Positions 28,516-62,144 of a DNA stretch of 64,000 nt are shown in pieces; within the stretch, counting starts at the first letter, position 1; every line of letters starts with the position of its first letter. A program made the translations under genes and the position numbers. Origin of the DNA: Limibacillus sp. (GTDB lineage Bacteria; Pseudomonadota; Alphaproteobacteria; Kiloniellales; CECT-8803); contig JARRJC010000001.1 in the NCBI GenBank assembly GCA_037379885.1, forward strand, positions 62,001 to 126,000, written 5' to 3'. Below the pieces are notes generated by a model, which did not search any database, was not told the DNA's origin, and saw nothing but the letters and a program-made list of their open reading frames with translations.

Positions 28516-29406
28516 ATGGATTGGGACAAGTTACGCATCTTTCACGCCGTTGCGGAGGCCGGCAGCTTCACCCACGCGGGCGAGCAGCTGAACCTCAGCC
28601 AGTCGGCGGTCAGCCGTCAGATTTCCGCCCTGGAAGAGAGCCTGAAGGTCATGCTCTTCCACCGCCATGCGCGCGGCCTGATCCTGACCGAGCAGGGCGA
28701 GCTGCTCTACCGCACGGCCCACGAGATCTTCGGCAAGCTCTCCATGGTCGAAGCGCAGCTGGCCGAGAGCAAGGACCGCCCGCGCGGCCTGCTCAAGGTC
28801 ACCACGACGGTTGCCTTCGGCTCCACCTGGCTCAGCCCGCGCATGCGCGACTTCATGGAGCTCTACCCGGATATCGAGGTGCACCTGATCCTGGCCGACC
28901 GGGAACTGGACCTTTCCATGCGCGAGGCCGATATCGGCATCCGCCTCTCCCCGCCGCGTCAGGCCGACCTGATCCAACGCCACCTGCTGACCGTGCACAT
29001 GGCGATCTTCGCCTCCACTCATTACCTCAAGAAACACGGCTCGCCGAGCAGCCCGGAGGACTTGAACAATCACCGCATCGTGGTCTACGGCGACGATGCC
29101 CGGCCGCCGGTCCCGGACGTCAACTGGCTCTTGCGGATCGGCAACGAGTCAGGCGAGATGCGCCGGGCGAACCTCACCGTCAACAACGTCTATGGCGTCA
29201 TGCGGGCGGTACAGGCCGGAGCTGGCATCGGCGCGCTGCCGGAGTTCATGGTCCAGGGTCAGAGCGATCTGGTGCAAGTCCTGCCGGAGCTCACGGGACC
29301 CACGATCGACGCCTATTTCGTCTACCCGGAGGAGCTTCGCGCCTCAAAACGAATCCAGGTGTTTCGCGATTTTCTCCTGCGCCACGTCGCCGCCCAGCGC
29401 TTCTAG
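28516..29406 (+). CDS. lsrB: LysR-type transcriptional regulator of the VtlR/LsrB group
   Basis: A 296-residue LysR regulator whose N-terminus MDWDKLRIFHAVAEAGSFTH and following SQSAVSRQISALE/LFHRHARGLILTEQGE segments are those of the highly conserved alphaproteobacterial VtlR (Brucella) / LsrB (Sinorhizobium, Agrobacterium) proteins. The helix-turn-helix spans about residues 17-45; a LysR substrate-binding domain follows (about 90-290). In Brucella VtlR activates the sRNA abcR2 and small-protein genes; LsrB is tied to oxidative stress and symbiosis. Here a structured RNA region and two small genes lie directly downstream, a matching context. No effector-specific residue can be named. Confidence 0.82.
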   Translation: MDWDKLRIFHAVAEAGSFTHAGEQLNLSQSAVSRQISALEESLKVMLFHRHARGLILTEQGELLYRTAHEIFGKLSMVEAQLAESKDRPRGLLKVTTTVAFGSTWLSPRMRDFMELYPDIEVHLILADRELDLSMREADIGIRLSPPRQADLIQRHLLTVHMAIFASTHYLKKHGSPSSPEDLNNHRIVVYGDDARPPVPDVNWLLRIGNESGEMRRANLTVNNVYGVMRAVQAGAGIGALPEFMVQGQSDLVQVLPELTGPTIDAYFVYPEELRASKRIQVFRDFLLRHVAAQRF

Positions 29407-29444
29407 GTTGTCAAAGCCGCCTTCCAGCCACCCTTCTGGCTCGA

Positions 29445-29491
29445 ATTTTCGGCGAAAATCTGCGGTGTTCAGAGCCATGCAAGCAACGCAT
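29445..29491 (+). promoter_or_regulatory. two T-N11-A LysR-type dyads upstream of the putative sRNA
   Basis: ATTTTCGGCGAAAAT (29445-29459) and ATGCAAGCAACGCAT (29477-29491) are both 15-bp dyads with the T-N11-A spacing of LysR-family sites. Their centres are 32 bp apart, about three helical turns, as for a LysR recognition site plus activation site. A -10-like TATTTT (29503-29508) follows, which would place the two dyads near -65 and -33. They lie just after the lsrB-like stop codon. Confidence 0.55.
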
Positions 29492-29514
29492 GCCAACTTT
29501 GCTATTTTTGGTAT

Positions 29515-29733
29515 GGTCTGAGCGCTCCCGCTCCTTATCTTGTCTCTTGTGAATGTTGCATTGCAGCATCCTTCGAGTTTCCGGCGGGCCTGTCTCGGCC
29601 CGCCGGTTCGAGTGTTCCAGGCGCCAGCCTGGACCAAGGGGCCCGGTTCTTGACCGGGGTCCTACGTCTCCCAGACGTGAAGCCTCCCTGTTCAACTTGC
29701 CGGGAAACGAATAGTTTCCCGGCTCTCTTTTTT
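29515..29733 (+). ncRNA. putative structured sRNA next to the VtlR/LsrB gene (AbcR-like candidate)
   Basis: This gene-free stretch is packed with perfect hairpins: CCGGCGGGCC/GGCCCGCCGG (29581-29606, 10 bp), CCAGGC/GCCTGG (29617-29632), CCCGGT/ACCGGG (29642-29658), ACGTCT/AGACGT (29663-29677, loop CCC), then an unpaired GAAGCCTCCCTG and a 10-bp terminator stem with a T-run. The two CUCCC stretches, one in a loop and one single-stranded, resemble the anti-Shine-Dalgarno seeds of alphaproteobacterial AbcR (alpha-r15) sRNAs. In Sinorhizobium, as I recall it, those sRNAs lie beside lsrB. The 5' end is only estimated from a TATTTT box at 29503. 6S RNA is the main alternative but its usual zapA/ygfA context is absent. 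Confidence 0.6.
29699..29733 (+). terminator. intrinsic terminator of the putative sRNA
   Basis: GCCGGGAAAC (29699-29708) and GTTTCCCGGC (29714-29723) form a perfect 10-bp stem with loop GAATA, followed by TCTCTTTTTT. A competing hairpin, GGCTCTC (29721-29727) with GAGAGCC (29736-29742), overlaps its 3' arm and T-run, so read-through into the downstream small gene could be tuned. Confidence 0.85.
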
Positions 29734-29856
29734 GAGAGAGCCGCACTGCTTTGCGGAAGTGAAACGGGGAATAGCGCCGGATTTCGGCCCCTGTTTTGAA
29801 GGTTCCGCCGTGGGAAGCACAGATAGGCCGCCCGCGGAGCAGCAACGAGGATGAGC

Positions 29857-30174
29857 ATGAGCCGTTTCGATCCCGATGGTCTCAAGGACCTGGAAACCAT
29901 GACCCCGGAAAAGCGCCTTTGGTGCGCCGTTCTTTTCCGCATTTTCCAGGACGCCTGCCGGACCCTGCCCCCCAAGGCCGACAACGCGCAGAAAGTTGAG
30001 CGCGATCAGGCCCGGTCCTGGCTACTCGGCGGCACCGATATGCGGATCGTCTGCGAGTTGGCCGGCTTCGATCCCGACGCCATCCGCGAGGCCGCAGAAC
30101 GCCTGAAGCGCAACGACTGGCCGCCGATCAAGGTGGACCTTTCGGAGCCCGCCCCGCTCCAGGCCGCCGCCTGA
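29857..30174 (+). CDS. small protein of unknown function, first of a tandem paralogous pair
   Basis: A 105-residue soluble, mostly helical protein. The ATG at 29857 is preferred over the one at 29851 because GAGG lies six bases upstream and because the paralogue also begins MSR(F/Y)DPD. Conserved between the two copies are EKRLWCAVLFRI, QDACR.LPPKADNAQKVERD, QARSWLL and DMRIVCELAGFDPDA.REAA. The last part resembles short helix-turn-helix-like modules seen in phage and plasmid proteins, but I do not recognise a named family. It lies immediately downstream of the putative sRNA terminator; a hairpin terminator follows at 30210. Confidence 0.8.
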   Translation: MSRFDPDGLKDLETMTPEKRLWCAVLFRIFQDACRTLPPKADNAQKVERDQARSWLLGGTDMRIVCELAGFDPDAIREAAERLKRNDWPPIKVDLSEPAPLQAAA

Positions 30175-30327: not shown

Positions 30328-30648
30328 ATGAGCCGATATGATCCCGACGCGATTGGGGGCGATACGCCTTTGACGCCTGAAAAGCGCCTTTGGTGCGCTG
30401 TGCTGTTCCGCATTCTGCAGGACGCCTGCCGTCCGCTGCCGCCCAAGGCGGACAACGCGCAGAAAGTAGAGCGCGATCAGGCGCGCTCCTGGCTGCTCAA
30501 TAGCCAGGACATGCGGATCGTCTGCGAACTCGCGGGTTTCGATCCCGACGCCATGCGCGAAGCGGCGCTGAAGCTCGAGACGCAAGACTGGCCCGCTCTG
30601 AAGCTCGACAGTCTGGTGCCAAAGGGCGACGACAAGATCGCCGCCTGA
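30328..30648 (+). CDS. small protein of unknown function, second of the tandem pair
   Basis: A 106-residue paralogue of the preceding gene, about two-thirds identical over the central 75 residues (EKRLWCAVLFRILQDACR and following), and divergent at both ends, which argues that both copies are under protein-level selection. The ATG has only a weak AGGGA at a long distance. A terminator lies between the two genes, so this one probably has its own promoter in 30243-30327, an A/T-richer stretch. It converges with the lipoprotein gene, leaving 12 nt. Function unknown. Confidence 0.8.
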   Translation: MSRYDPDAIGGDTPLTPEKRLWCAVLFRILQDACRPLPPKADNAQKVERDQARSWLLNSQDMRIVCELAGFDPDAMREAALKLETQDWPALKLDSLVPKGDDKIAA

Positions 30649-44961: not shown

Positions 44962-45017
44962 GGGCTGTTGGGAAGGGCTTTAGGAATAGGACCCTGGGGC
45001 GGCATCCGGGCGGGCCT

Positions 45018-45914
45018 TCAGCGCTCGCCTGACGCCTCCTCTTCGATCGGGCCCAAGAGACCCTGCACCAGCGGGTTGGGATACTTACGCTGCTTGGTCA
45101 CGGCGTAGAAGGTCTCCGAGATTCCCGGCAGCGTGTCGGCATTCACCAGACGCCCGCTCGCCAGCTCGTCCTTGACGACGATCGGGGGAATCACGGCAAG
45201 GCCCACGCCGTCGCGGGCCAGCAAGCGCGCCATCGCCATATCGTCAACCTCCGCCGCCACCTTCGGCGTCACGTTGAGACGGCTGACCAGCGCGTCAAAG
45301 TCGGCGCGCGGGCCGCTCATGGCCGCCGGCAGCACCAGGGGAGCCGAGGCGAGACGCTCAGCCAGCGAAAGGCCGGGCGGAGAGAGCGAGGGGATGCCGA
45401 TCAAACCCACGGGCTGCTCGGCGAGGCGGTGAACGATGAAGGGCGAGAGAGCGTTTCGGTCGGGCGGATGATTGGTCAGGACAAGGTCAAGCTGAAGCAT
45501 CGTCAGGGCCTCGAAAAGCTCGGTTCGGCTGCCCGAGCGCAGGATCACCTCCACGTCGTCGCGCCCCAGAACCGGTTTCAGGAAGGCCAGCTGAAGGTTC
45601 CGCGAGAGGGTGGCGATGGCCCCGATCTTGAGCGGCCGCCGCGCCTGCGGGCCGAGCGTCAAGGTCGAGACGAGCTCCTTGCCCGCCGCGAAGATCGTGT
45701 CGGCATGCTCCAAGGCTATCCGCCCGGCCTCCGTCAGGTGGAGGGCGCGGCCCCGCCGCTCGAAAAGCGCCTGGCCAAGCCGCTCTTCCAGTTGGCGGAT
45801 CTGGGACGAGAGAGCCGACTGCGCGACATTGAGCTGCTCGGCTGCGCGGGTGAGGTTCCCCTCGTGAGCAACGGCCTGGAAGTAGCGTAGGTGATGGTAG
45901 TTGAGCTCTTGCAT
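45018..45914 (-). CDS. LysR family regulator adjacent to the dab genes
   Basis: A 298-residue LysR regulator with the helix-turn-helix LTRAAEQLNVAQSALSSQIRQLEERLGQALFERRGRAL (positions 45723-45833) and a co-inducer domain. The ATG at 45914 gives the normal start MQELNYHHLRYFQAVAHEGN; the frame runs 36 nt further without support. It is divergent from dabB, the usual position of the LysR regulator of DAB inorganic-carbon operons, so it probably controls dabB-dabA-cysD and itself through the box at 45918-45934. Confidence 0.88.
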   Translation of the reverse strand: MQELNYHHLRYFQAVAHEGNLTRAAEQLNVAQSALSSQIRQLEERLGQALFERRGRALHLTEAGRIALEHADTIFAAGKELVSTLTLGPQARRPLKIGAIATLSRNLQLAFLKPVLGRDDVEVILRSGSRTELFEALTMLQLDLVLTNHPPDRNALSPFIVHRLAEQPVGLIGIPSLSPPGLSLAERLASAPLVLPAAMSGPRADFDALVSRLNVTPKVAAEVDDMAMARLLARDGVGLAVIPPIVVKDELASGRLVNADTLPGISETFYAVTKQRKYPNPLVQGLLGPIEEEASGER

Positions 45915-61165: not shown

Positions 61166-62062
61166 TTAGCCCTGTTTCTTCAGTTTCAGCTTGGCGCGCA
61201 CCTCTTCGGGGCTCAGCAGCTTGACGTTCATGGCCTCCAGGATGGTCCGCGCACGCTCCACCAGTTGACCGTTGGTGGCCAACACGCCGCGCTCCAGGTA
61301 GATGTTGTCCTCCAGTCCGACGCGCACGTTGCCGCCCGCCGCCGCCATCAGCCCGACGTAGGGAAGCTGGCTGCGCCCGATGGAAAAACCGGAGAAGACC
61401 GCGCCCTTGGGCACGCGGTTCACCAGCGCCATCAGGGTGTTGGGATCGTCCGGCGCGCCATAGGGGATGCCCATGCAGAGCTGGATCAGGACGGGATCGT
61501 CGAGCACGCCCTCTTTGATCATGTCCTCGACCATGACCATGTGGCCGAAATCGAAGACCTCCAGTTCGGGCCGCACGCCCAGTTCCTGGACCCGTTTGGC
61601 CATGGTCATGAGCTGGGCCGGGGTGTTGCACATGACGTAGTCGCCGCCCGCCGCGAAGTTCATGGAGCCGCAGTCCAGCGTGCAGATCTCCGGCAGGCAT
61701 TGCTCGACATGGGCCAGACGCTCCAGCGGGCCCGCGATGTCGGTTCCCGCCTCGTCCAGCGGCAGGGGCTTCTCACCCTTGCCGAAGACCAGATCGCCGC
61801 CCATGCCGGAAGTCAGGTTCACGACCACGTCGGTGTCGCTGTCGCGCACCCGGTCCACCACCTCCTTGAACAGCTTGGGATCGCGGCTGCCCTTGCCGGT
61901 CTCGGGATCGCGCACATGGATATGGGCGACAGCCGCGCCCGCCTGGGCCGCCTCGATCGCCGCGGCGGCGATCTCCTTGGGCGTGACCGGGACCTTGTCG
62001 CTCTTGCCGGTGGTGTCGCCCGCGCCGGTCACGGCGCAGGTGATGAAAACCTCTTGGTTCAT
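61166..62062 (-). CDS. BKACE enzyme, probable dehydrocarnitine:acetyl-CoA acetoacetate-forming lyase (CdhC-like)
   Basis: A 298-residue TIM-barrel protein of the beta-keto acid cleavage (formerly DUF849) family. [22 protein letters not shown] (about 7-28), [19 protein letters not shown] (about 43-61) and the metal/substrate loop [15 protein letters not shown] (about 124-138) are characteristic. Beside carnitine dehydrogenase, the expected reaction is dehydrocarnitine plus acetyl-CoA giving betainyl-CoA plus acetoacetate. It is first in the operon with its promoter in 62063-62144; GGGAGG precedes the ATG. The specificity is inferred from the neighbour. Confidence 0.87.
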
Positions 62063-62144
62063 GGGGCATCGCCTCCCTGTTGATAACGCGCTCTAAGCGA
62101 AGCATTAACTGGATTGGCGCCGCTTGATATTGCAATAATGGACG
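62063..62144. promoter_or_regulatory. divergent promoter region of the carnitine operon and its regulator
   Basis: Only 82 nt separate the BKACE gene from the GlxA-type regulator, so both promoters and operators must be here. An A/T-rich dyad-like stretch, ATATTGCAATAAT (62128-62140), built round the palindrome ATTGCAAT, lies just before the regulator start and is the best operator candidate. The 62080-62115 part holds GATAACGCG and TTAACTGG but no clear sigma70 promoter. Confidence 0.45.

Follow-up and report, generated by a model that had tools for sequence, protein, structure and literature searches.

An AbcR-like small RNA candidate behind an LsrB/VtlR-type regulator gene, with a core spread over a large part of the Alphaproteobacteria

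In rhizobia, Agrobacterium and Brucella, small RNAs of the AbcR type turn down transporters for nutrient uptake. We asked whether an RNA of this kind is encoded in a 64,000-nt stretch of Limibacillus sp. DNA (the window), where a sequence-only reading had proposed an AbcR-family sRNA in a gene-free interval directly after an lsrB/vtlR-like gene. The flanking reading frames bear out the position, as the gene-free interval (29407-29856) is bounded by a LysR gene (28516-29406) and a 107-aa ORF (29851-30174). The features of the locus are listed below.

28516-29406 (+): LysR-type regulator, LsrB/VtlR-like, 296 aa, assigned by phmmer, Pfam and the orthologues upstream of the RNA
29477-29491 (+): predicted LsrB/VtlR box, ATGC-N7-GCAT (contains the LTTR pattern T-N11-A), centred at about -64 from the predicted start
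29514-29519 (+): predicted -35 element TGGTCT; the 112 aligned promoters conserve T-n-G at +37/+39 from the box
29536-29541 (+): predicted -10 element TATCTT; TATnnT-like pattern at +59 to +64 from the box
29548-29732 (+): predicted sRNA of about 185 nt, from the fold (z -7.0) and the promoter and terminator bounds, with the 5' end estimated from the -10 element
29553-29569 (+): SL1, 5' hairpin UGYUGC...GCARCA, from the fold and a cross-locus stem
29572-29612, 29613-29636 and 29637-29663 (+): SL2, SL3 and SL4, variable hairpins, from the fold
29664-29678 (+): SL5, ACGUC-UCCCA-GACGU, with CUCCCA at the loop; near-invariant stem and loop
29679-29698 (+): single-stranded linker GAAGCCUCCCUGUUCAACUU, from the fold, with the near-invariant part GAAGCCUCCCUGUU
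29684-29692 (+): predicted seed CUCCCUGUU in the linker, its complement ACAGGGA being enriched at the ribosome-binding sites of solute-binding protein (SBP) genes
29699-29733 (+): intrinsic terminator, 10-bp stem (29699-29723) and T run, from the inverted repeat and covariation

The LysR protein matched the structure of A. tumefaciens LsrB (9hh1; PMC11975290) with a phmmer E value of 1.2e-98, the next structure following at 2.4e-36, and carries the Pfam domains HTH_1 and LysR_substrate. Its similarity to LsrB is far above that to other LysR proteins, which marks it as closely related to the Agrobacterium protein. LsrB-like matches at E 1e-70 numbered one in most genomes. The protein has zero cysteines and hence lacks the redox cysteines C144/C273 that are a feature of Agrobacterium LsrB (PMC11975290). 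Cysteines are also absent from 75 of the 105 orthologues accompanied by the window-type RNA, so the redox cysteines cannot be general: most regulators paired with this RNA lack the residues through which LsrB has been proposed to sense, at odds with the redox-cysteine model from rhizobia. On the 3' side of the RNA, two similar small proteins are encoded in tandem on the forward strand (29851-30174, 107 aa; 30328-30648, 106 aa); the first had no Pfam match, and among the loci examined a match was confined to the nearest relative. Elsewhere in the window, ARAGORN predicted a tRNA-SeC at 44988-45066 (+).

Folding of 29548-29732 gave -96.1 kcal/mol against -64.6 in shuffled sequences (z -7.0), and none of 200 shuffles was as stable. 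In the predicted structure, five hairpins precede a single-stranded linker of 20 nt, which the terminator follows. The earlier reading had described four perfect hairpins, of which the inverted repeats at 29581-29606 (a perfect 10-bp repeat) are present, while the count changes to five hairpins plus the terminator; its strong intrinsic terminator was found at 29699-29723 with a T run. The promoter-based estimate puts the 5' end at ~29548, some 38 nt downstream of the start of the transcript it had guessed (29510-29735). An SL1 stem of at least 7 pairs stood at the equivalent place in 81 of 112 loci, compared with 15% of shuffles, with C-G/U-G/U-A exchanges inside the stem, and SL2-SL4 vary in sequence, length and number among relatives. 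A second perfect hairpin, CGGCTCTCT/AGAGAGCCG at 29720-29743 (+), shares sequence with the terminator's 3' arm.

When the region was compared by BLASTN with 58 genomes of its order (Kiloniellales), 54 of these yielded one conserved piece of ~45-75 nt, lying around 29657-29730. The 3' core made up of SL5 and the linker, ACGUCUCCCAGACGUGAAGCCUCCCUGUUCAACUU, was near-invariant in 54/58 order-level and 106/289 class-level genomes, which goes beyond the extension to another order that had been envisaged. Covariance model matches were obtained in 147 of the 289 class genomes, some of the weaker ones probably being mmgR. In the aligned sequences, SL5 with CUCCCA at the loop and the linker part GAAGCCUCCCUGUU showed scarcely any variation; this invariance is partly due to selection, because these sequences were picked for an exact CTCCCAGACGTG, a selection of which the order-level BLASTN and class-level core counts are free. 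In the terminator stem, all 7 pairs that were counted showed compensatory changes, a level reached by none of 500 shuffles, and sliding the partners destroyed the signal. A fixed pairing region followed by a freely changing terminator is, as judged from these alignments, the pattern of an sRNA. Rfam release 15 gave zero matches at gathering thresholds within the window, and likewise in 20 relatives; the plasmid collection held no match to the RNA, and the literature searched contained no relevant mention of the core sequence. The RNA is thus absent from Rfam and, by its sequence matches, spread over a large part of the Alphaproteobacteria rather than being an oddity of one lineage.

The RNA is linked to the regulator gene. 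The intergenic sequence after lsrB, whose comparison in related genomes had been proposed, held the RNA directly behind a LysR orthologue (71-87% identical) in 18 of 19 diverse order-level relatives, and the other neighbours of the RNA were kept in the nearest relative alone. In the class sample, a LysR orthologue was detected in 166/289 genomes; both LysR and RNA were present in 96, and in 85 of these the RNA lay downstream of LysR within 5.7 kb. All 87 downstream matches in these 85 genomes were on the same strand as LysR, with a median spacing of ~215 nt (mostly 150-350 nt). Among GenBank loci, LysR was within 1 kb of the RNA in 71/118, most of the others having no LysR match in the DNA examined, and the linkage recurred in named GenBank genomes, e.g. 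Pelagibius, Kiloniella and Tistlia. A few LysR-bearing lineages (L193, L194 and L195) had no recognisable RNA behind LysR.

Other arrangements were also seen. The small genomes G290, G300 and G234 carry multiple copies of the core RNA, with as many as 7 model matches, and gave no LysR match at E 1e-70 or a weak one; a Caedimonas MAG (L080) had the core with LysR absent from the DNA examined. Window-type RNAs stood in tandem arrays of two or three behind LysR at G223:C1:3175633-3176246, G319:C3:270657-270937 and L202, which resemble tandem AbcR1/AbcR2.

Between LysR and the RNA, an exact ATGC-N7-GCAT palindrome was found in 112 of 151 distinct loci, against 0.65 in shuffles and 1 in LysR coding regions. 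The flanks of this box were conserved in the 112 aligned promoters, including a T at +23, and the -35 and -10 patterns stand at a fixed distance from it. In S. meliloti, LsrB acts on PabcR1 via GCAT-N3-TG-N3-T at -61 to -49 (PMC8844928). Locus L265, a strong ar15/AbcR match, has GCAT at -61 within TATGC-N7-GCATA, and the GCAT half in the window lies at about -60 from the predicted start; relative to the rhizobial consensus, GCAT and the final T are conserved at equal distance, whereas the internal TG is not. Some rhizobial ar15 loci carry the box at the same distance as window-type loci. L265 has another ar15 copy in tandem, which lacks the box, in agreement with the report of abcR2 without it (PMC8844928).

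Candidate targets were sought in the same genome. The sequence complementary to the right part of the linker, ACAGGGAG, was searched as ACAGGGAG-N2-13-ATG and occurred 20 times, versus 4 for the reversed pattern. Fourteen distinct ORFs follow these matches, five of them Pfam-confirmed solute-binding proteins (three SBP_bac_8, one SBP_bac_5, one Peripla_BP_6); a sixth, with no Pfam match, looks like a family-3 SBP. A generic Shine-Dalgarno control pattern gave zero SBPs among the proteins scanned. For 1396 genes called in 1.62 Mb of one genome, ACAGGGA stood at the ribosome-binding site of 6/39 ABC binding-protein (SBP) genes and 4/1357 others (p 6e-8), an effect of six genes obtained after several k-mers were examined, with SBP labels from heuristics and phmmer on de novo gene calls. 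AACAGGGA was near the start of 4/39 SBP genes versus 1/1357 others, and the plain anti-SD part (CAGGGAGG, AGGGAGGC) in 0/39 SBP genes. When labels were taken from ABC neighbourhood and signal peptide alone, 8-nt matches were found in 4/23 versus 25/1373 (p 0.001). Linkers with shuffled flanks reached the observed count in 4 of 300 cases. Overall duplex energy separated SBPs weakly (p 0.02-0.04), whereas the exact seed separated them clearly; the SL5 loop as a second seed gave no target enrichment.

A sibling sRNA-like element of the same genome, at G000:C11 ~9104 (L341:9104, +), has a GAAGCCUCCCUGUUC linker and a terminator and no ATGC-N7-GCAT box. As this linker is also that of the window RNA, some of the seed matches may belong to the sibling, whereas mmgR in this genome is without the UGUU half of the seed. 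A 13-nt perfect complement at G000:C11:9100 was rejected as a target, being the opposite strand of the sibling. A BKACE (beta-keto acid cleavage enzyme) gene with ACAGGGAGG before its start (62060-62080, -) is a possible further target.

The seed sequence and the 3' part of the RNA also recall other sRNA families. At relaxed Rfam thresholds the 3' part matched SorX (21.6 bits, E 0.009), suhB/mmgR (17.2 bits) and SorY (12.3 bits), all far below cut-off. The alpha-r8 family (mmgR/SisA-D; suhB RF00519, of the ar15 clan) shares the succession of hairpin, anti-SD CCUCCCU linker and terminator, and some mmgR loci score 12-19 bits with model R1. Membership of the window RNA in this family is nevertheless improbable: the suhB/mmgR score compares with a cut-off of 41 bits, and a genuine mmgR stands elsewhere in the same genome (G000:C1:2229-2304, 54.5 bits), at another locus that is not behind this LysR and with another right half of the linker (CCUCCCUAAAC where the window RNA has CCUCCCUGUUC). 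We give equally little credence to a SorX-type RNA. SorX (RF02784) of Rhodobacter sphaeroides is the best Rfam similarity and has the same CUCCCUGUU linker before the terminator, and it represses the polyamine ABC transporter gene potA (PMC9438474), several predicted targets of the window RNA being SBP_bac_8 proteins. The score, however, is far below the cut-off of 46.6 bits, and SorX is a 75-nt RNA from the 3' UTR of an OmpR-type gene (PMC9438474), whereas the window RNA follows a LysR gene, from which it is separated by the box and the -35/-10 elements at fixed spacing. A housekeeping RNA such as 6S, or mere terminator or 3' UTR structure of LysR, would account for the high structure and the terminator at its end but is very improbable, since a near-invariant unpaired linker and seed enrichment are unexpected for a terminator, and 6S (RF00013) is ruled out at the Rfam level, with no match at the gathering threshold in the window or in 20 relatives.

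Does the AbcR reading, then, hold? The Rfam check suggested by the sequence-only reading was run with the 6S and ar15/AbcR (RF02345) models, and neither matched at E 10 in 29300-29900; a whole-genome search gave no ar15 match at the locus either (family cut-off 40 bits). The window RNA was therefore filed as an AbcR-like variant and not as an ar15 member. The position given there for AbcR sRNAs, next to lsrB in Sinorhizobium, proved correct, as abcR1/abcR2 lie directly downstream of vtlR/lsrB in A. tumefaciens and S. meliloti (PMC7486931; for the slot also PMC3712013). The window RNA occupies this place, following the same type of LysR gene immediately and in the same orientation. It likewise resembles AbcR in a predicted LTTR box at equal distance that shares GCAT and the final T, a CUCCC hairpin loop (AbcR motif M1 is CUCCCA, PMC5461406, present here in SL5), a further unpaired C-rich motif ahead of the terminator, and predicted targets that are ABC solute-binding proteins, e.g. 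LivK-type, the class of an S. meliloti AbcR1 target. Unlike AbcR, which has GUUCCCCUC in the linker, the window RNA has CCUCCCUGUU and not GUUCCC (M2, situated between hairpins in AbcR), together with extra 5' hairpins, a single copy here and a core nearly invariant across orders. Of the AbcR-family proposal, what stands is the LysR slot, the predicted LsrB-type box, the CUCCC motifs and the seed at SBP ribosome-binding sites; what lacks support is literal membership in ar15.

Of 81 genomes from a rhizobial order, 10 contained ar15, and in five of the loci examined it followed the same LysR in the same orientation. The window-type RNA was essentially missing from the rhizobial-order genomes searched. 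A model R1 match in G366 (66.5 bits) was set aside as evidence for the RNA in Rhizobiales, this genome having 6% contamination and a partial LysR adjoining the match. On rhizobial AbcR loci, model R1 gave 7.8-11.8 bits at the right places, scores that are suggestive although a weak sequence test. Rhizobial AbcR loci cross-match SorX, SorY and suhB much like the window RNA, and Rfam joins ar15 and suhB in one clan; on these grounds a distant homology of the window RNA with AbcR is plausible.

The RNA gene, its conservation and covariation, the LysR linkage, the box and the seed enrichment are computed results, and from these and published AbcR work we infer activation, repression and Hfq dependence. 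The locus would form a two-gene module of an LsrB/VtlR-type LysR activator with its own sRNA gene behind it. LysR would activate the sRNA by binding the ATGC-N7-GCAT box, which lies ~64 nt before the predicted start. The linker CUCCCUGUU, and perhaps the SL5 loop, would then pair with ribosome-binding sites, chiefly on mRNAs for periplasmic binding proteins of ABC transporters, and the pairing would block translation as AbcR does in rhizobia. Taking the locus features together with the AbcR literature, we consider it likely that LysR activates the RNA and that the RNA represses SBP mRNAs at their ribosome-binding sites. That the window RNA works like AbcR is largely supported, as far as computation tells.

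On the origin of the system our judgement is evenly balanced: the window RNA may represent an ancestral, class-wide LsrB/VtlR-sRNA module of which rhizobial AbcR would be a diverged or replaced local version, all of them controlling ABC nutrient uptake. AbcR has been described as belonging to rhizobia, Agrobacterium and Brucella, and these results suggest that the pairing of this regulator with an sRNA is far older and is spread over much of the class. Its core can be found by a simple search and yet is absent from Rfam. From the seed, a testable regulon can be predicted for many organisms with unstudied sRNAs, namely ABC solute-binding proteins whose ribosome-binding site carries AACAGGGAG.
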